The notes under the pieces: generated by a model
What the model saw: the letters and a program-made list of their open reading frames with translations, nothing else
What the model was told of the DNA's origin: nothing
Databases searched by the model: none
DNA from: an uncultured delta proteobacterium
GTDB taxonomy: Bacteria > Myxococcota_A > Polyangia > Polyangiales > Polyangiaceae
Direction: 5' to 3'
Length of the DNA: 50,162 bases
Assembly: GCA_903906315.1 (NCBI GenBank)
Contig: CAIVJW010000333.1
Location: 1-50,162, forward strand
Made by a program: the position numbers and the translations under genes
Shown here: positions 3,457-11,558 of the stretch, piece by piece
Layout: the number at the start of each line of letters is the position of its first letter
Position numbering within the stretch: the stretch's first letter is position 1

Positions 3457-4992
3457 TCAGCGCCGGCAGGCCGCCGGCATGGCGTGCTTGGCGCAGTAGG
3501 CCGGGTCGATCGGGGCGCCGATGGTCAGCACCGCGGCCTGCGACGGCAGCCGCGCGCGCGTGCCGCAGACGAGGCCGCCGCCGCTCGGCGCCTCGCTCGG
3601 CGCGCACACGCCGGCCTCGTTCGGCGTCGTCCAGGCTTGACCTGTCCCGTACACGAGGTTCATCGCGTAGCGCCCCTCCGGCAGGCACCCGTACGCGACC
3701 TCGACCGTCCGGCCGAACTGCGCGCCGAGCGCCGCGGTCAGGGCCTTCTCGTCGCCGACGACCTTGTTGCCGGCCTTGTCGGTCGCGTGGGTCACGAGCA
3801 ACGTCGCGCGCTTCGTCGCGTCGAGGGGATCGAGGCACAGCACCGAAGGCCGCAGCGCGACCACGATCTCGGCCTTCGTGGCGTGGATCGTCGCCGCCGA
3901 CAGGGCCGTCGAGACGAGCGAATCGGCGATCGTGATCCCTTGCAGCAGCACCACCGGGGCGGCCTGGCTCGCCCCCGATCCCTCGGAGAGGCGCGAGAAG
4001 ATCGAGAGTGGGTACAAGGACGGGATCAGCGCGGAGTCCGGCACATGGTCCTTGCCGTCGAGCGTGCCATTTTCGTCGACGTCCTGCCGTGTGACGAGGA
4101 ACGTGGGGCTCGCCGTCGGGAAGCCGAACGGCGCCGCGGCGGCGACCTCGGCCTCGCCCTTGGGCACGCCGGCGCCGAGCCGGATCCGCAGGAACGACTG
4201 CTCGGTCGCGGCGGCCTTGGCGGAGTCGAAGATCGCGAGCTGGAAGTCGCTCGGCAGCTCGACGTGGCCGGGATCCTGCTTCGCGCCGGCGGGCGCGATC
4301 ACCTCGGCGACGTGGAAGATCGGCCGCTCGGCCTCGAGCGTCAGGCCGAGCGTCACGGCCACGCCCTCGACGCGCGCGCCCGCCTCGGGGATCGCGCGCG
4401 ATCCGTTCTCCTGCAGCTCGCCGAGGCCGATCGCCCGGTAGGCCGGCGGCTTGCCCTGGAGCACGTCGGCGACGTTGTCGATCGCGCCGCCTCCGACGTC
4501 CCCGCGGCTCGGTAGATTGGCAATCACGAAGCCCGGGTCGAAGTCGCCGTCACGGTCGTAGAAGCCGCGGATCTGGTAGGTCCCCGCGGGCAGCGGGGCA
4601 ATCGCCCAGGCGCCGGTCACCGTGGCGGGCGCCGCCTTCGCGTCGGGGCACCAGAGGCCGCCGCTCGGCTCGAAGGTGAGGCGGTCGCGCACGCCGGCGA
4701 AGAGCGCGTCGCCGGTCACGACGGCGAGGCTCGCAGCCGTGGTGCCGATCCCGTCGGGCGGCGGCAGCAGGCGCTCGTCGAACGCGAACAGCACGGCGGC
4801 GCCGACCACGTGGCCGCCCGCGGTGCAGGGCAGCGCGCCCGAGTACGTGAGGGCGCCGTCGATGACGCCCGCGGGGCCGCCTGCCTGCGACGGGGGCAAG
4901 AACGCGTCCGGCTCGGTGCACGCGGCGCCGACGAGGGCCATGCCCACGATGCCGCGGGCGAGGGGCAGGGGCGCAATCCGGCGGCGGACCAT
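3457..4992 (-). CDS. Lipoprotein coupled to TonB-dependent receptor
   Basis: A 511-residue secreted protein. A basic N-terminus, a hydrophobic stretch and a lipobox VGAAC (Cys25) mark a lipoprotein signal. The body has beta-rich stretches such as LPAGTYQIRGFYDRDGDFDP, typical of Ig-like or carboxypeptidase-regulatory-like folds, and a Ca-binding-like DVDENGTLDGKD. No enzyme motif was found. Its ATG shares one base with the TGA of the TonB receptor gene (TGATG at 4990-4994), strong evidence of translational coupling. By analogy with other receptor/lipoprotein pairs it may sit at the outer membrane and help capture the ligand. That role is inference and no named family was recognised. Confidence 0.75.
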   Translation of the reverse strand: MVRRRIAPLPLARGIVGMALVGAACTEPDAFLPPSQAGGPAGVIDGALTYSGALPCTAGGHVVGAAVLFAFDERLLPPPDGIGTTAASLAVVTGDALFAGVRDRLTFEPSGGLWCPDAKAAPATVTGAWAIAPLPAGTYQIRGFYDRDGDFDPGFVIANLPSRGDVGGGAIDNVADVLQGKPPAYRAIGLGELQENGSRAIPEAGARVEGVAVTLGLTLEAERPIFHVAEVIAPAGAKQDPGHVELPSDFQLAIFDSAKAAATEQSFLRIRLGAGVPKGEAEVAAAAPFGFPTASPTFLVTRQDVDENGTLDGKDHVPDSALIPSLYPLSIFSRLSEGSGASQAAPVVLLQGITIADSLVSTALSAATIHATKAEIVVALRPSVLCLDPLDATKRATLLVTHATDKAGNKVVGDEKALTAALGAQFGRTVEVAYGCLPEGRYAMNLVYGTGQAWTTPNEAGVCAPSEAPSGGGLVCGTRARLPSQAAVLTIGAPIDPAYCAKHAMPAACRR

Positions 4993-7577
4993 CACTTCGA
5001 CCCTCCGAGCGAGTAGGAGAAGAACCCCATCACGCGGCGCCCGACGCGGTTGCCGAACGGGTGCTGCTGCGCCGGGTCGCCGAAGACGTCCGCGAGCGCG
5101 TTGAAGACGGTGGCCGAGACCTCGGCGCGCTCCTTGTAGAAGCGGAAGCCGACGCGCCCATTGAGCAGCGTGTAGGCGGGCAGATCGAAGAGGCGGTATT
5201 CGATGCCGGTCGCGGTGGCCACCTGCTCGCGCCACGACTGCGGAGACTGGTAGTGGAACGTGATCTCGCCGTTGAAGCCGATCTTCGTGCGAAACTGGAC
5301 GCCTGCGTTCACCTTGTGGCGGCTCGTGCGCTTGTCGTCGGGCACGTCGCAGCCGGCCGGGCGCTCCTGCACTCCGTAGTTGATGGCGTAGTTCGCGAAG
5401 AGGTCGAGTCCCTCGGTCGGGTAGACCCGCCCGCCGAGCTCGCCGCCGCCGACGTGGTACGTGTCGCAGGCGTTCTGCCAGCCGCCGTTGGCGACCGAGT
5501 AGCGCCCGGTCGCCGGGTCGAGGCCGCCGACGCCGTCCTTGCGGTTCGACAGCGTGTCGACGCGCGCGTCGGCCAGGAGGATGAGCTGACTGACGCGGTT
5601 GTAGTACGCCGTCAGCTCGAACTCGAAGAGGTCGCTCTGCTGGTTCAGGTAGCTCGCCTCGCCCGTGACGATCTGCTCGGGCTGAAGGATGAAGGAGCGG
5701 TCGTCGGCGCGCTTGGTCGCCGAGACCATCTGGACGCCCGGCACCGAGAGCTGGATGGGCAGGCCGAGGTACGCCTCGAGGTAGCTCGGCGTGCGGAACG
5801 CGGTGGATCCCGACACGCGCACGGCCTGCCGATCGGTCGGCTTCAAGATGAGCGAGCCGCGCGGAGAGGGGACGACCTTCTCGAGGTACGGCACGTAGTC
5901 GATGCGCCCCGAGGCGACGAGCTCGGCCCACGAGGTGAAGTGGATCGAGTCCTGGAGGAAGACCGAGGCGTGGTGCTCGACGGGCACCTCCGGCTGGAAG
6001 TACTCCCAGTTGACGTCTTTCATCCGGTAGCCGGCGCCCACGCGGACGTCCTGCCGCACCGATCCCGGCCAGTCGAGCGACCCGGCGTAGACGACCTCGG
6101 CGTCGACCACGTTCTGCGTCGGGTGCGCGTCGAAGAGCGTGTGGCCGCGGTACGCGTAGTCCACCGAGGTGCGCGAGGTGAGCCGCTGGTAGTACGCGCG
6201 CGCCGTCACGTGCTTCGTGCGCAGGGCGGCCGTCACGTCCGCGTTGTCGAAGTGCACGACGTAGTCGTTGAACGGGCCGATGCCGTAGATGTCGAGGTCG
6301 CCGCGCGAGTAGCCGCCGCCGAGGTCCACCTCGACGTCCGATCCGAAGCGCTGCGTCGCGCGCACGTCGAGGCGGACGTTCTGGGCGCCCACGTTCTGGT
6401 CGGCGTCGGAGGTCACGAGGTCCACGCGGCTCGAGGCCACCTCGCGCGTCCACCGCGGGTAGCGCGTGTAGCCCGCCGAGGCGCGGAACGCGAAATCGCC
6501 CTCGCGGCCAGCCGCCCACACCGATCCGTACGCCTGCCCGTGGTCGCCGCCCCCGGCGCGCGCGCCCGGCTTGCCGACGCCCGGCGCGATCGTGATGATG
6601 TTGACGACGCCCGCGAACGCGTCCGCGCCGTAGAGCGCCGATCCCGGGCCGCGCACGACCTCGAGGCGATCGATCTGGTCGACGTCGACGGTGAGCGACT
6701 CCCAGAACGTCGATCCGATGAAGTCGAAGTAGACGCTGCGCCCGTTCACCAGGACGAGCAGCTTGTTGGCGAGGCGGCTGTTCATGCCGCGCATCGAGAC
6801 GTTCGTGTCGCCGCCCGTGATTTGCATCACGTCCATCCCGGCGACCCGGCGGAGCAGCTCGGGGATGCGCGTGATGCCGGACAGCTGGAGGTCCTGGCGC
6901 GTGAGGATCGTCGTCGAGCTCGGCGAGTCGAGCGGGCTCTGCGCGCCCCGCGACGCGGTCACGACCGTCTCCCGATAGACGTCCTCGGTGCGCGCCTTGC
7001 CGTCGGCCTCCGCGGCGGCCGGCGGCGTGGCGGGCGGCGTCGGCGGACCGGGCTTCGCGCTCGGCGCCGGACCGGGCGGCGCCTCGGTCGTGGGCGTTGC
7101 GATCGGCGCGGGAGCCGGCTCGGGCGTCTGCGGCCCGGTCGCGATCGGCGCAGGGGCCGGCGCGGGCCGGTCGTGCTCGGCCTTCTGGAGGGCGCGCTTC
7201 GACTCGAGCTGCTCGACGAGCTTCGCGACCTTCTCGCGATCCGGCGGGCTCGACGCGAGGTAGTCGCGGTACGCCGTGAGCGCCTCGTCGATCCGCCCGA
7301 GCTCCACGAGCGCGCGCGCGACGTTGTAGGACACGTTCGGGTGCGGCAGGATCGCGTTCGCCTGCGTGAGCTCGTCGACCGCGGCCTCGTAGCGGCCCTT
7401 CGCGATGAGATCCATGCCCGCGCGGAAGTGGCGGCGCGCCTCGGTCCGGGCGTCGGCGTGGGCGGCCCCGCTCGCGCACAGCCCGGCGAACGCGATCGCC
7501 ATCGCGCCCAGCGCGCGCGCGCCGCGTCCGGTCGTCTTTCGCCCTGCGCGAGCTCGCTTGTCGTCCGCCACGGCCAC
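4992..7577 (-). CDS. TonB-dependent receptor with N-terminal TPR region
   Basis: Start chosen at GTG 7577 because AGGAGG (7587-7592) lies 9 bases upstream; this gives 861 residues. A signal peptide ends near AHA (residues 39-41). Residues 43-125 form a TPR-like helical region (ALVELGRIDEALTAYRDYL), followed by a proline/alanine-rich linker (138-190). A TonB-box-like ETVVTAS (203-209) then leads into the plug, with the VRGPGSALYGADAF motif near 308-321. The rest is a 22-strand-type barrel. Such receptors import siderophores, cobalamin or glycans using energy from TonB-ExbBD. The TPR and linker before the TonB box are an unusual extra periplasmic module. Substrate unknown. A cobalamin riboswitch lies 4 kb upstream on the same strand, but separate transcription units intervene. 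Confidence 0.88.
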   Translation of the reverse strand: MAVADDKRARAGRKTTGRGARALGAMAIAFAGLCASGAAHADARTEARRHFRAGMDLIAKGRYEAAVDELTQANAILPHPNVSYNVARALVELGRIDEALTAYRDYLASSPPDREKVAKLVEQLESKRALQKAEHDRPAPAPAPIATGPQTPEPAPAPIATPTTEAPPGPAPSAKPGPPTPPATPPAAAEADGKARTEDVYRETVVTASRGAQSPLDSPSSTTILTRQDLQLSGITRIPELLRRVAGMDVMQITGGDTNVSMRGMNSRLANKLLVLVNGRSVYFDFIGSTFWESLTVDVDQIDRLEVVRGPGSALYGADAFAGVVNIITIAPGVGKPGARAGGGDHGQAYGSVWAAGREGDFAFRASAGYTRYPRWTREVASSRVDLVTSDADQNVGAQNVRLDVRATQRFGSDVEVDLGGGYSRGDLDIYGIGPFNDYVVHFDNADVTAALRTKHVTARAYYQRLTSRTSVDYAYRGHTLFDAHPTQNVVDAEVVYAGSLDWPGSVRQDVRVGAGYRMKDVNWEYFQPEVPVEHHASVFLQDSIHFTSWAELVASGRIDYVPYLEKVVPSPRGSLILKPTDRQAVRVSGSTAFRTPSYLEAYLGLPIQLSVPGVQMVSATKRADDRSFILQPEQIVTGEASYLNQQSDLFEFELTAYYNRVSQLILLADARVDTLSNRKDGVGGLDPATGRYSVANGGWQNACDTYHVGGGELGGRVYPTEGLDLFANYAINYGVQERPAGCDVPDDKRTSRHKVNAGVQFRTKIGFNGEITFHYQSPQSWREQVATATGIEYRLFDLPAYTLLNGRVGFRFYKERAEVSATVFNALADVFGDPAQQHPFGNRVGRRVMGFFSYSLGGSK

Positions 7578-7705: not shown

Positions 7706-9517
7706 TCAGTAGGGCGAGGGCTTGTAGTCCTTCATCGGCGCCGCGGGGGTCGCGGGGAGCGCCTGGAGCCGCGCCGAGACGCGATCGTCGGTCGGGCCCA
7801 CGCTCACCCGCTGCGGCTTCCAGCCGGCCTTCTCGAGCGAGATCACGTGCGCCGCGGCCGCGTCGGCGAAGCGCGCCTCGCAGGGCGTGGCCGGGCAGAT
7901 CGGCCTGCCCGCCTCGGTCACCACGGCGCCGGCCGGCTCGCTCTCGACGCGGACCACCCGCGGCGCGCGCGCGGGCGGATCGGCGGTCGTGACCGTCGTC
8001 GGGCTGGGCGGCGCGGTCGGCGTCGGCGCGGCGGCGCTGGCCTCCTGGGTCGCGCTCTCGCCTGCGGGGCGCGCGCCGGACGTCGTCACGACGACCGCGG
8101 CCGCGGCGATGGCGATGGCGACGGCGGCGCCGAGGATCGGCCCGAGCCCCCGCCGAGACCGCCCACGAAACGCCGCGATCTCGGCCTCTTCGTCCACCGC
8201 GGTGCGCTGAGCCGCGCCGAGCGAGTCGCCCGACGACGGAGCCGGCGCGGCCGGTCCCGGGGGGGCGGCTCCGGCGCGCCGCGTGTCGGCAGCGGCGTCG
8301 TCCGCCCGCTCGTACGGTGTCGTGGGCACCGCGCTCGGGTCGACCGAGGCGGGCAGCGGCGGCTCGGGCGCGGCCCACGTCTGCGCCTCCGTCGGCGCGG
8401 CAGCGAGCGCCCGCGGCGGAGGGGCGCCGGGCGACGGGCGCGTGGCCGCGACGGCGAACGGATCGGCCGCCGGGGGCGTCAGGATCGGATCGGGCCCCGG
8501 TCGCGTCGACGCCTCGACCGACGCGGGCGGAGCCGCGCGCGGCAGGGCCTCGTGGGTCGAATACGGCGACGACTCGCCGATCGACCGCAGCGCGACCAGC
8601 AGCTCGTCGGTCGAGGCGTAGCGGGCGACCGGATCCTTCGCGAGGCAGCGCTCGACGATCGCCTCCATCTCGGGCGAGATCACGAGGCCCTCGCGCTGCC
8701 CGGCGATCGGCGGGAGCGCCTCGTTCACGTGGGCCAGCAGCGTGTGCATGTTGGTCCCGCGGTCGAACGGGACCTTTCCGCACAGCATCTCGTAGATCAT
8801 CACCCCGAGCGCGTAGAGGTCGGTGCGCGCGGAGACGTCGTGGCCGAGGATCTGCTCCGGCGACATGTACTTGGGCGACCCCAGGAAGAGGCCCTCCTCG
8901 GTGAGGTCGCCGGTCGTCGCGCCGGTCACGACCTTCACGAGGCCGAAATCGAGCACCTTCACGACGTCGTGCTCGTCGCCGTGGTCGCTGAGCAGCACGT
9001 TCCCCGGCTTCAGGTCCCGGTGCACGACGCCGATCTTGTGCGCCTCGCGCACCCCGCGGCAGATCTGCCGCGCGATGTGGGCGGCGCGCGCCTCGGGGAA
9101 CGGGCCGTCCTCGCGGAGCGCGCGGTACAGCGTGCGCCCCTCGATGTACTCCATCGCGATGTAGTAGAGGTCCGCGTCGTCGGCCTTGCCGTAGTCGAAG
9201 ATGGTGACCGTGTTCGGGTGGTTGATCTTCGAGGCCGTCGACGCCTCGAGGAAGAAGCGCCGGTGGAACTCGGGGTCGTGGTCGCCGTCGTACCGAGGCG
9301 AGAGCACCTTGACGGCGCAGACCCGCCCGAGGGGCGCCTGAACGGCCGTGTAGACCTTGCCCATCCCGCCGCGCGCGATGACGCCGGTGATGCGGAAGCG
9401 GGCGTTGATGGTGCGACCGACGAGCGGATCGACGGTCTGGCTTCGCGGGGCGCGCTCCGCCCCGGGCGCCCCCCGCGCCTGCGACTCCGCAGCTGATCCC
9501 GATCGATGCTCGCTCAT
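7706..9517 (-). CDS. Ser/Thr protein kinase with PEGA-like C-terminal domain
   Basis: A 603-residue membrane kinase. The kinase domain spans about residues 40-305: glycine loop ARGGMGKV, ATP-binding Lys70 (CAVK), HRDLKPGN (166-173), DFG (190-192) and the activation segment ending SPKYMSPEQ. All catalytic residues are present, so it should be active. A proline/alanine-rich region leads to one transmembrane helix (about 455-480). The external tail has a PEGA-like module (VRVESEPAGAVVTEAG...) that may bind the envelope. The gene lies between the riboswitch-controlled lipoprotein (410 bases upstream) and the TonB receptor (128 bases downstream), all on one strand. Targets unknown. Confidence 0.9.
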   Translation of the reverse strand: MSEHRSGSAAESQARGAPGAERAPRSQTVDPLVGRTINARFRITGVIARGGMGKVYTAVQAPLGRVCAVKVLSPRYDGDHDPEFHRRFFLEASTASKINHPNTVTIFDYGKADDADLYYIAMEYIEGRTLYRALREDGPFPEARAAHIARQICRGVREAHKIGVVHRDLKPGNVLLSDHGDEHDVVKVLDFGLVKVVTGATTGDLTEEGLFLGSPKYMSPEQILGHDVSARTDLYALGVMIYEMLCGKVPFDRGTNMHTLLAHVNEALPPIAGQREGLVISPEMEAIVERCLAKDPVARYASTDELLVALRSIGESSPYSTHEALPRAAPPASVEASTRPGPDPILTPPAADPFAVAATRPSPGAPPPRALAAAPTEAQTWAAPEPPLPASVDPSAVPTTPYERADDAAADTRRAGAAPPGPAAPAPSSGDSLGAAQRTAVDEEAEIAAFRGRSRRGLGPILGAAVAIAIAAAAVVVTTSGARPAGESATQEASAAAPTPTAPPSPTTVTTADPPARAPRVVRVESEPAGAVVTEAGRPICPATPCEARFADAAAAHVISLEKAGWKPQRVSVGPTDDRVSARLQALPATPAAPMKDYKPSPY

Positions 9518-9927: not shown

Positions 9928-11244
9928 CTACGGGGTCGTGCTCGCCAGGACGACGAACGTGGTCTTGCCGGTGGCGTCCGGGGCGCCGACCCAGAGCCGC
10001 CCCGCGTCGTCGGTCATCAGCGTGAGCTGCGCGCCCAGGGCTCCGAGCCCGAGGAGCTTCGCCGGCGCGCCCTGCGGTGCCACGTGACCTCCGCTCACCG
10101 TGAAGCGCTGACCGACGACGTCCATCGGCGCGAAGCTCGTCGGATCCGACGGCTGGAACGCGATCCGTCCCTCGCCGTCCGCGCCGGGGGCCATCGCCGC
10201 GAGCGACGATCCGAAGCCGGGCAAGGTGAAGAGGACGTCGCCCTTCGCCGCCGGCGCCCCCCGCGCGATCGCGGACCCCGCCCAGCCGCGCGCCTCCTGA
10301 TCGCCGGAGAAGCTCGTCATCACCGCGAACACGTTGCCCTCGAGGTCCGCGGCGACCGGGCCCGAGGCGTCGCCCCAGGCGTCCACGAGCACCGGCGCGG
10401 CGCACGTCCCGTCGCCCTTGGGCGCCAGCCGGGGGTCGCTCCCCGAAGCGCCGCACGAGTCGGCCGCGTACAGGCCGTTCACGCTGGCCTGGGCGTCGTC
10501 GAGCCTGGACGCCCCGCTGTAGATCACGCGCCCCACGCCGCCCGCGCCGACGGCGGCGAGCGCGTACGGCCCGTTCACCGGGTAGCGCGCGGCGACGGCG
10601 GCGCCCTTCGCGAAGAAGAGCTCGCCCTGCGTGGCCGGGTAGGCGCCCGTCCACGACAGCGCCGTCCACTCGAAGAACGGCAGATCGAGGGCCTGCAGGC
10701 CGAGGAACGCCTTCGGGTCGGCGATCTGCGGCGCGATCTCGGCCTTCGTCGCGCCCATCGTCCCGGTCGCCCCCGCGGGCGGCGCGAACCGGGTGAGCTC
10801 GACCGTGCCGGCCTGCGATCCGGGGCCGGTCGTCAGCGGGCCGCCGTGGCGCCCCCACGAGGGCACGTCCATCCCGAGGACGACGTCGACCTCGTAGCGC
10901 GCGACCGCGCACAAGGTCCCGTCGGCGATCGTGAAGAGCGCCTCGAAGCCCTTTGGATCGAGGCAAACCTGCGCCGCTCCGCCGCCCGCGCCGCCTCCGT
11001 GCGACGAGCCCCCCGCGCTCGAGCCCCCCGCGCCTCCTGCCGCCTGTCCGCCGCCGCCGCCTCCAGCGCCCGTCGTCGTCGTCGTCGGTGTTGCCGTCGC
11101 CGCCGTCGTACCGCCCGACGGGCTCAGGTTCTCCTGATTGTCGCCGCACGCCACGAGCGCCACCACGATCGCGCCGAGCCCCGCCGCGCGCGCGCCTATT
11201 CGGCCGGCCCCGCTGCGCGTGGGCGCCGTATTCTTCTCGTTCAT
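9928..11244 (-). CDS. Cobalamin-riboswitch-controlled lipoprotein
   Basis: A 438-residue lipoprotein: basic N-terminus, hydrophobic segment and lipobox LVAC (Cys33), then a Thr/Gly-rich linker (about 45-92). The mature part has repeated strand-rich segments with short turns, such as GPVAADLEGNVFAVM and DAGRLWVGAPDATGKTTFVVL, which recall beta-propeller blades. Start ATG 11244 is supported by GGAGG five bases upstream. The ATG overlaps the stop of a 33-codon leader ORF (ATGA). A cobalamin riboswitch begins about 310 bases upstream. No BtuB, transporter or cobalamin-enzyme motif is present. I infer a surface or periplasmic corrinoid-related role, perhaps analogous to BtuG lipoproteins. The lipoprotein and riboswitch are seen; the fold and function are inference. 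Confidence 0.75.
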   Translation of the reverse strand: MNEKNTAPTRSGAGRIGARAAGLGAIVVALVACGDNQENLSPSGGTTAATATPTTTTTGAGGGGGGQAAGGAGGSSAGGSSHGGGAGGGAAQVCLDPKGFEALFTIADGTLCAVARYEVDVVLGMDVPSWGRHGGPLTTGPGSQAGTVELTRFAPPAGATGTMGATKAEIAPQIADPKAFLGLQALDLPFFEWTALSWTGAYPATQGELFFAKGAAVAARYPVNGPYALAAVGAGGVGRVIYSGASRLDDAQASVNGLYAADSCGASGSDPRLAPKGDGTCAAPVLVDAWGDASGPVAADLEGNVFAVMTSFSGDQEARGWAGSAIARGAPAAKGDVLFTLPGFGSSLAAMAPGADGEGRIAFQPSDPTSFAPMDVVGQRFTVSGGHVAPQGAPAKLLGLGALGAQLTLMTDDAGRLWVGAPDATGKTTFVVLASTTP

Positions 11245-11342
11245 CTCCGCCTCCGTGCGGGCGCCGTTCCCGCGCCCTCGATCGGGTCCAGGTGGAGCCA
11301 TGGAACGCGGGCACGCGGCGCCATTGCCGGGTGACCGCCCAT
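11241..11342 (-). CDS. Putative 33-residue leader peptide
   Basis: A short ORF starts with ATG (11342-11340) right after GGGGAGGAG (11353-11345), which holds a strong Shine-Dalgarno core. It runs 33 codons and ends with TGA at 11243-11241. That stop overlaps the lipoprotein start codon as ATGA, so ribosomes finishing the leader could reinitiate on the lipoprotein gene. The peptide is MGGHPAMAPRARVPWLHLDP followed by a short Arg-ending tail; it has no recognisable domain. Its ribosome site and start codon lie inside the two competing hairpins downstream of the riboswitch. Translation is not proven, and the overlap could be chance in GC-rich DNA. Confidence 0.4.
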   Translation of the reverse strand: MGGHPAMAPRARVPWLHLDPIEGAGTAPARRRR

Positions 11343-11359
11343 GGCTCCTCCCCGGAGCC
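11294..11359 (-). promoter_or_regulatory. Two mutually exclusive hairpins (riboswitch expression platform)
   Basis: Segment GGAGCC (minus strand, 11348-11343) can pair two ways. In hairpin 1 it pairs with GGCTCC (11359-11354) across a 5-base loop, placing part of GGGGAGGAG in the loop and stem. In hairpin 2 the longer GGAGCCATGG (11348-11339) pairs perfectly over 10 bases with CCATGGCTCC (11303-11294), hiding the leader start codon. Both cannot form at once. No T-run follows, so control of translation is more likely than transcription termination. The pairing is read from sequence; the switching role is inference. Confidence 0.45.
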
Positions 11360-11368
11360 TCGGACGGC

Positions 11369-11558
11369 CTCGACGCAGCAGGTTTCCTGGCTCCCGGATC
11401 GTCCTCCAGCAGGCCCTTCCCAGGTGCGCTCGCGCGCTCCCAGTGGCGTACCTGCCTTCGTCCCCGGATACAGTGGCGGGGGCCGCGCCGGCGTTTCACC
11501 GGCTTCCCTGTTGTCCGGCGCGCGAAGCCGAAAGCTCCTCGCGCGCCCACTGCTCGAG
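11369..11558 (-). promoter_or_regulatory. Cobalamin (AdoCbl-type) riboswitch
   Basis: Read on the minus strand, the conserved cobalamin aptamer elements appear in order. P1 5' arm CTCGAGCAG (11558-11550) pairs with CTGCGTCGAG (11378-11369) with one bulged base. P2 is GGCGCGCGA with TCGCGCGCC. Then come AGGGAAGCCGGTGAAA, the CCCGCCACTGT core, CCACTGGGAGC, CCTGGGAAGG and the B12-box AGCCAGGAAACCTGC. Elements and spacing fit the family closely. Such aptamers bind adenosylcobalamin and usually repress downstream cobalamin synthesis or uptake genes. The first gene downstream is the lipoprotein ending at 9928, about 125 bases from the aptamer. Confidence 0.93.

Follow-up and report, generated by a model that had tools for sequence, protein, structure and literature searches.

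What would a lipoprotein of no named family do behind a cobalamin riboswitch, and how would the riboswitch act on it? This question is raised by the window studied here, a stretch of 50,162 nucleotides that makes up contig C333, which belongs to an 8.79-Mb genome that is 98.6% complete. Relatives of this genome are Byssovorax, Minicystis and Sorangium, which places it in the order Polyangiales of the Myxococcota. The features with which the question begins are as follows.

11377..11536, minus strand: cobalamin riboswitch aptamer (RF00174; 81 bits, E 1.8e-18)
11370..11558, minus strand: aptamer with its likely P1 stem (11558-11554 CTCGA with 11374-11370 TCGAG), read from the sequence beyond the Rfam-aligned part
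11477..11481, minus strand: L5 loop segment CCCCG, putative half of a kissing loop (read from the sequence; L5 consensus in PMC10653944)
9928..11244, minus strand: family A lipoprotein of 438 aa with lipobox LVAC, a predicted six-bladed beta-propeller (alignment, AlphaFold model and structure match)

A conserved riboswitch and lipoprotein pair

The original prediction had recognized a cobalamin riboswitch in this leader, and a search with the Rfam covariance model agrees: the match covers model positions 19-172, its score lies far above the gathering score of 31.5, and it is the sole RF00174 match in the genome. The span first proposed for the aptamer, 11369-11558, is sound for the core, and the 5-bp P1 stem that extends it, read by eye, is plausible. 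The riboswitch of the window is an ordinary member of RF00174.

We searched for homologues of the lipoprotein, which we call family A, in 97 genomes of the order Polyangiales, its own genome included. Proteins 27-48% identical over the full length were found in about 20 relatives, and a profile search detected the family in 24 of the 97 genomes. RF00174 lies directly upstream and on the same strand in 26 of 33 homologous loci (19 in relatives, 6 further loci from GTDB, and the window), so the expected order of riboswitch and lipoprotein is conserved; one more locus, L015, whose contig starts inside the aptamer with the B12 box visible, was left out of this count. The seven loci that lack the riboswitch comprise four from Sorangium (L008/L054, L052, L056, and L057), two second copies (L025/L066 and L058) whose other copy in the same genome has it, and the divergent L026/L073. 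At the Sorangium locus L052 (L052:4440-5010) no riboswitch remnant was found up to an E value of 1. The one checkable genome with a riboswitch-less Sorangium homologue, G057, encodes CobS and a partial CbiC, and the same holds for G019 of the same genus; B12 makers may have dropped riboswitch control of family A in Sorangium.

A new family of predicted propeller lipoproteins

The description of the protein as a lipoprotein of an unnamed family with propeller-like repeats proved accurate. Residues that are invariant among the 20 aligned homologues include the lipobox cysteine C33 as well as W130, G131, H133, G135, P136, R152, D187, G295, P296, D300, and W418, and the family shares the conserved motif (T/S)WGxHGGP. 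The linker is a flexible, low-complexity region rich in Gly, Ser, and Thr. In an AlphaFold model built from this alignment, every residue from 91 to 438 has a pLDDT above 80, and most of these exceed 90. Its best structural matches are six-bladed propellers, namely PQQ sugar dehydrogenase (Z 19.5), Pizza6, NHL domains, and phytase, and among the structures listed both these matches and the predicted strands point to six blades. The best Foldseek matches are sialidases and lectins with low TM-scores. BtuG is absent among the 50 structures listed for the model, a result with which a distant relation is compatible.

No match to Pfam or NCBIfam above the cut-off was found for the protein. With a profile of the 20 homologues, the search of PDB sequences returned no meaningful relative and no BtuG chain up to an E value of 1. 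Judged by its sequence, family A is a new lipoprotein family that is not BtuG, and its propeller fold is a common one that does not identify the ligand.

Other targets of cobalamin riboswitches in Polyangiales

At least one RF00174 match is present in 90 of the 97 genomes, and the genes that come first after about 100 of the matches were clustered. They encode family A, TonB receptors (with the Pfam Plug domain in the two that were tested), and other lipoprotein families; further genes, recognized from their sequences without a family search, we take to encode an ATP-cone ribonucleotide reductase, MetE, CbiM, and CbiX. The arrangement of a riboswitch ahead of an ATP-cone ribonucleotide reductase gene recurs at L078, L081, L089, L131, and 17 other loci. 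Two smaller lipoprotein families are also found behind the riboswitch. One has a conserved VFEN motif and about 215-230 aa in its complete members (L177:2064-2747, L159:2122-2766, L109, L127, L148, L157, L162, and L183), and the other is short and repeated with a motif near GCGGFAWS (L120:1691-2641, L144:2192-2650, L100, L153, and L161).

The largest of the other riboswitch-controlled lipoprotein families, here family B, has 22 members in the sample. Its profile gives weak matches to PDB chains of BtuG (E about 4e-4), and BtuG structures hold Foldseek ranks 1-14 for its AlphaFold model, the best in the whole PDB, with Z 28.6 over 296 residues compared with 26.3 for the best non-B12 chain. The family B loci (L164, L076, L080, L151, L136, L186-L190, and others) may, on the evidence of these models, represent BtuG outside the Bacteroidota. 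Family B genes lie near riboswitch-controlled TonB receptors at L076/L143 (G077) and L102/L151 (G020).

Families A and B are seldom found together. Family A occurs in 24 and family B in 34 of the 97 genomes, and they share two genomes where 8.4 would be expected (Fisher p 0.0012), or two genera where 6.8 would be expected (p 0.011); family B was scored as present above 140 bits, a cut-off set after the scores were seen, and the test treats genomes and genera without phylogenetic correction, so the exclusion may partly reflect phylogeny. Because the two families rarely occur in one genome, their distribution suggests that they do the same job.

The host genome has 13 matches to B12-binding domains over the cut-off, in at least 13 proteins, and neither CobS nor CbiC was found in it. 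From this combination the host probably needs an external corrinoid and cannot make B12. CobS is present in 20 of the 97 genomes overall and in 5 of the 24 with family A, and we rejected the idea that B12 auxotrophy is specific to family A genomes, as these counts show no association. The absence of CobS from 77 of the 97 genomes supports uptake as a theme of the whole order, with no special tie to family A.

Does family A capture corrinoids?

Our best inference is a BtuG-like role for family A, as the original prediction had proposed. We think it probable that the protein, from a presumed location on the cell surface, captures corrinoids at the outer membrane under an OFF riboswitch and replaces a BtuG-like protein there. 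In favor of this are the conserved link to the sole cobalamin riboswitch of the genome, the propeller model, the enriched L13-like hairpins, the other first genes behind the riboswitch in the order, the match of family B to BtuG, the distribution of families A and B, and the B12-binding domains of a genome in which CobS and CbiC were not found. Several results count against a role in B12 capture: the fold of family A is common, BtuG has seven blades, and no similarity in sequence connects family A with either BtuG or family B, a profile comparison of the two families giving a probability of 15%. Also against it are the four Sorangium loci and two second copies without the riboswitch, the failure to find a close relative of the riboswitch-controlled TonB receptors in the host genome, and the weak similarity of the window's own receptor to them.

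In another reading, family A would serve B12 homeostasis without binding a corrinoid, through vesicle release like that of BtuL, by binding another nutrient (such as cobalt, a siderophore, or a glycan), or by assisting some B12-dependent process. No binding of B12 was seen for BtuL, which is a lipoprotein encoded in the riboswitch-controlled operons of Bacteroides (PMC12751083), and the sialidases and lectins found by Foldseek would also fit such a protein. We nevertheless regard this reading as unlikely, given that family A and the BtuG-like lipoproteins controlled by the same riboswitch seldom share a genome and that nothing but family A is under the riboswitch in a genome where CobS and CbiC were not found.

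The expression platform and the leader ORF

The leader between the aptamer and the lipoprotein gene contains the following features.

11343..11359, minus strand: hairpin A (GGCTCC-GGGGA-GGAGCC), directly 3' of the aptamer; its loop is L13-like, as in 17 of 20 homologous leaders
11294..11303, minus strand: CCATGGCTCC, alternative partner of 11348-11339 and part of the second hairpin proposed earlier; not conserved in homologues
11259..11277, minus strand: hairpin B (GGGCGC-GGGAACG-GCGCCC), whose loop CGGGA is an L13 sequence; found in 13 of 20 leaders, with compensatory changes
11250..11254, minus strand: GGAGG, the Shine-Dalgarno sequence of the lipoprotein gene, 5 nt ahead of the ATG
11241..11342, minus strand: 33-codon leader ORF proposed earlier, probably not a functional gene (no coding bias, not conserved)

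The expression platform of cobalamin riboswitches carries a loop, L13, with which loop L5 (consensus UCCCG) forms a kissing interaction (PMC10653944). Two hairpins in the window could offer such a loop. The arms of hairpin A pair 11359-11354 with 11348-11343, and its loop CGGGG complements L5. Hairpin B, which the original prediction did not include, is conserved directly ahead of the lipoprotein gene and ends 4 nt from its Shine-Dalgarno sequence. Compared with shuffled sequences, L13-like hairpins are enriched at both positions, with 6.0 leaders expected just after the aptamer and 3.8 before the Shine-Dalgarno sequence. Changes on both sides of hairpin B keep the pairing at three of its four core pairs, and such changes are few. 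Hairpins like B were also seen by eye ahead of many family B (BtuG-like) lipoprotein genes. The L5 segment CCCCG may therefore kiss an L13-like loop, for which the match of the loops is evidence and not proof, and the working L13 may be hairpin A, hairpin B, or both.

Two mutually exclusive hairpins had been proposed earlier for this leader. Both can be drawn in the window, where they share positions 11343-11348, but only hairpin A is conserved. The competing 10-bp pairing of 11348-11339 with 11303-11294 (GGAGCCATGG/CCATGGCTCC) is strong and suggestive in the window alone (z -2.1), whereas pairing of hairpin A with the middle of the leader has a mean z of -0.3 over 15 leaders, with a combined p of 0.15 against dinucleotide shuffles. 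Pairing to the Shine-Dalgarno sequence over the same number of leaders was no better than in dinucleotide shuffles (combined p 0.81). Folding does not support masking of the Shine-Dalgarno sequence by hairpin B, and this counts against a translational-masking model.

It had also been proposed that control passes through translation of the leader ORF, and the elements of that proposal are all in place: a 33-codon ATG ORF at 11342-11241, a GGAG ribosome site, and an ATGA overlap with the start of the lipoprotein gene. With a codon model in which coding windows of the lipoprotein average +0.41 per codon (sd 0.20), the ORF scores -0.37 per codon and the other two frames score -0.35 and -0.31. In homologues, the ORF that begins at the corresponding start codon (ATG or GTG) runs for 1 (L003, where the start reads ATG-TGA), 52 (L007), 181 (L005), 333 (L006), or 362 (L004) codons. 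The leaders of L004 and L007 are more alike than those of any other pair, and even between these a 1-nt indel shifts the frame within the ORF. We therefore rejected the ORF as a conserved gene, as it has no coding bias and its length and stop vary among homologues. The ATGA overlap is automatic for an ORF in frame +2 that is still open where a gene starts with ATGA.

In its full form the proposal holds that the riboswitch controls translation of the 33 codons and that the lipoprotein is made by termination and reinitiation at the overlap. Besides the elements already named, the strength of the competing pairing in the window itself speaks for this, and so does the ppe2 gene of M. tuberculosis, where a uORF that overlaps the gene as AUGA relays the action of a B12 riboswitch in this way (PMC11260477). 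We consider it improbable as the main route, since the ORF is neither conserved nor coding-like, the overlap is automatic, and the lipoprotein gene has its own Shine-Dalgarno sequence. This sequence, with an L13-like hairpin just ahead of it, also leads us to favor direct translational control of the lipoprotein as the simplest model.

Genes downstream of the lipoprotein

Further downstream on the same strand are two genes of interest.

7706..9517, minus strand: Ser/Thr protein kinase, probably a separate unit; a neighbor in the Sorangium/Byssovorax/Minicystis group only
4992..7577, minus strand: TonB-dependent receptor that has TPR repeats at its N terminus, a candidate transport partner

A second lipoprotein (3457-4992) joins the kinase and the receptor in a cluster. 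All three genes keep their place in the Sorangium/Byssovorax/Minicystis group only, and outside this group the downstream neighbors are mixed, including glutamate synthase, 5'-nucleotidase, DsbA, and AAA genes. A conserved operon with a B12 transporter was therefore rejected, as neighbors vary beyond the close group. The receptor, two genes downstream of the lipoprotein in this one group, is weakly similar to the riboswitch-controlled TonB receptors of the order, and a search of the host genome for relatives of those receptors found none that are close (best 28% identity).

It is very improbable that the riboswitch mainly serves the kinase and receptor cluster, with the lipoprotein merely the first gene of an operon: the genes share a strand, the order of kinase and receptor is kept within the group, and no terminator was found, but a gap of 410 nt intervenes, most riboswitch-bearing homologues lack the kinase and receptor at this place while riboswitch and lipoprotein are still paired, and Sorangium keeps the cluster without the riboswitch. 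Because this pair stays together while the downstream neighbors change, the riboswitch and the lipoprotein are the unit under selection.

A model for corrinoid capture and its significance

We propose the following model for the locus. The aptamer would bind corrinoid when its level in the cell is high, and we infer that the riboswitch is of the OFF type and controls translation. L5 would then kiss the L13 loop of hairpin A after the aptamer, of hairpin B before the Shine-Dalgarno sequence, or of both, so that the ribosome site of the lipoprotein gene would be masked. When corrinoid is scarce, the Shine-Dalgarno sequence would be open and the lipoprotein would be made. The mature six-bladed propeller, tethered by its lipid and flexible linker and presumably exposed at the surface, would capture corrinoids and may hand them to an outer-membrane receptor. 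Family A would in this way hold the place that BtuG-like propellers have in related genomes.

A broader claim is that Polyangiales gave rise to a new class of corrinoid-binding outer-membrane lipoproteins, six-bladed and without sequence relation to BtuG, and that this class took over from BtuG-like lipoproteins under control of the same riboswitch; we hold it to be evenly balanced. If it is true, propeller lipoproteins under riboswitch control came to capture B12 on more than one occasion in evolution, and also outside the Bacteroidota. Across this order of Myxococcota, cobalamin riboswitches precede lipoprotein propellers of which family B is near BtuG in predicted structure and family A is new; should family A bind corrinoids, lipoprotein-assisted B12 capture would extend to myxobacteria, few of which have a complete B12 synthesis, and a conserved protein family with no assigned function would be given one. 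In the literature searched, we found no papers on riboswitch-controlled propeller lipoproteins in Myxococcota.

Comparison with known systems

The closest functional comparison is BtuG of Bacteroides (BtuG2, PDB 8BMX; 3DSM), which has been reported from BlastP searches to be confined to Bacteroidetes (PMC6143338). Like family A, BtuG is a beta-propeller lipoprotein under cobalamin riboswitch control in a host that depends on external B12, a dependence that is probable for the host of the window. The two differ in that family A is predicted to have six blades rather than seven, has no detectable sequence similarity to BtuG, belongs to another phylum, and is not encoded next to a recognized btuB, and its corrinoid binding is putative. 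Family B shares with family A the order, the riboswitch, and the lipoprotein architecture in a near-exclusive distribution, but it is a YVTN/YncE-type propeller close to BtuG. BtuK1, BtuH, and BtuJ (DUF4465) resemble family A as accessory B12-regulated lipoproteins; they are known to bind B12 and belong to other sequence families, whereas family A matches no Pfam family.

With regard to regulation, the leader shares with the L5-L13 kissing-loop class of RF00174 the aptamer core, the B12 box, the L5 segment, and L13-like loops near the ribosome site, but it carries an L13-like hairpin twice, first behind the aptamer and again ahead of the Shine-Dalgarno sequence, and it governs a stand-alone lipoprotein. 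The ppe2 leader of M. tuberculosis likewise has a short ORF between aptamer and gene with an AUGA overlap, but PPE2 has no Shine-Dalgarno sequence of its own and depends on the uORF, whereas the lipoprotein gene of the window has a good one, and the ORF there is not conserved.
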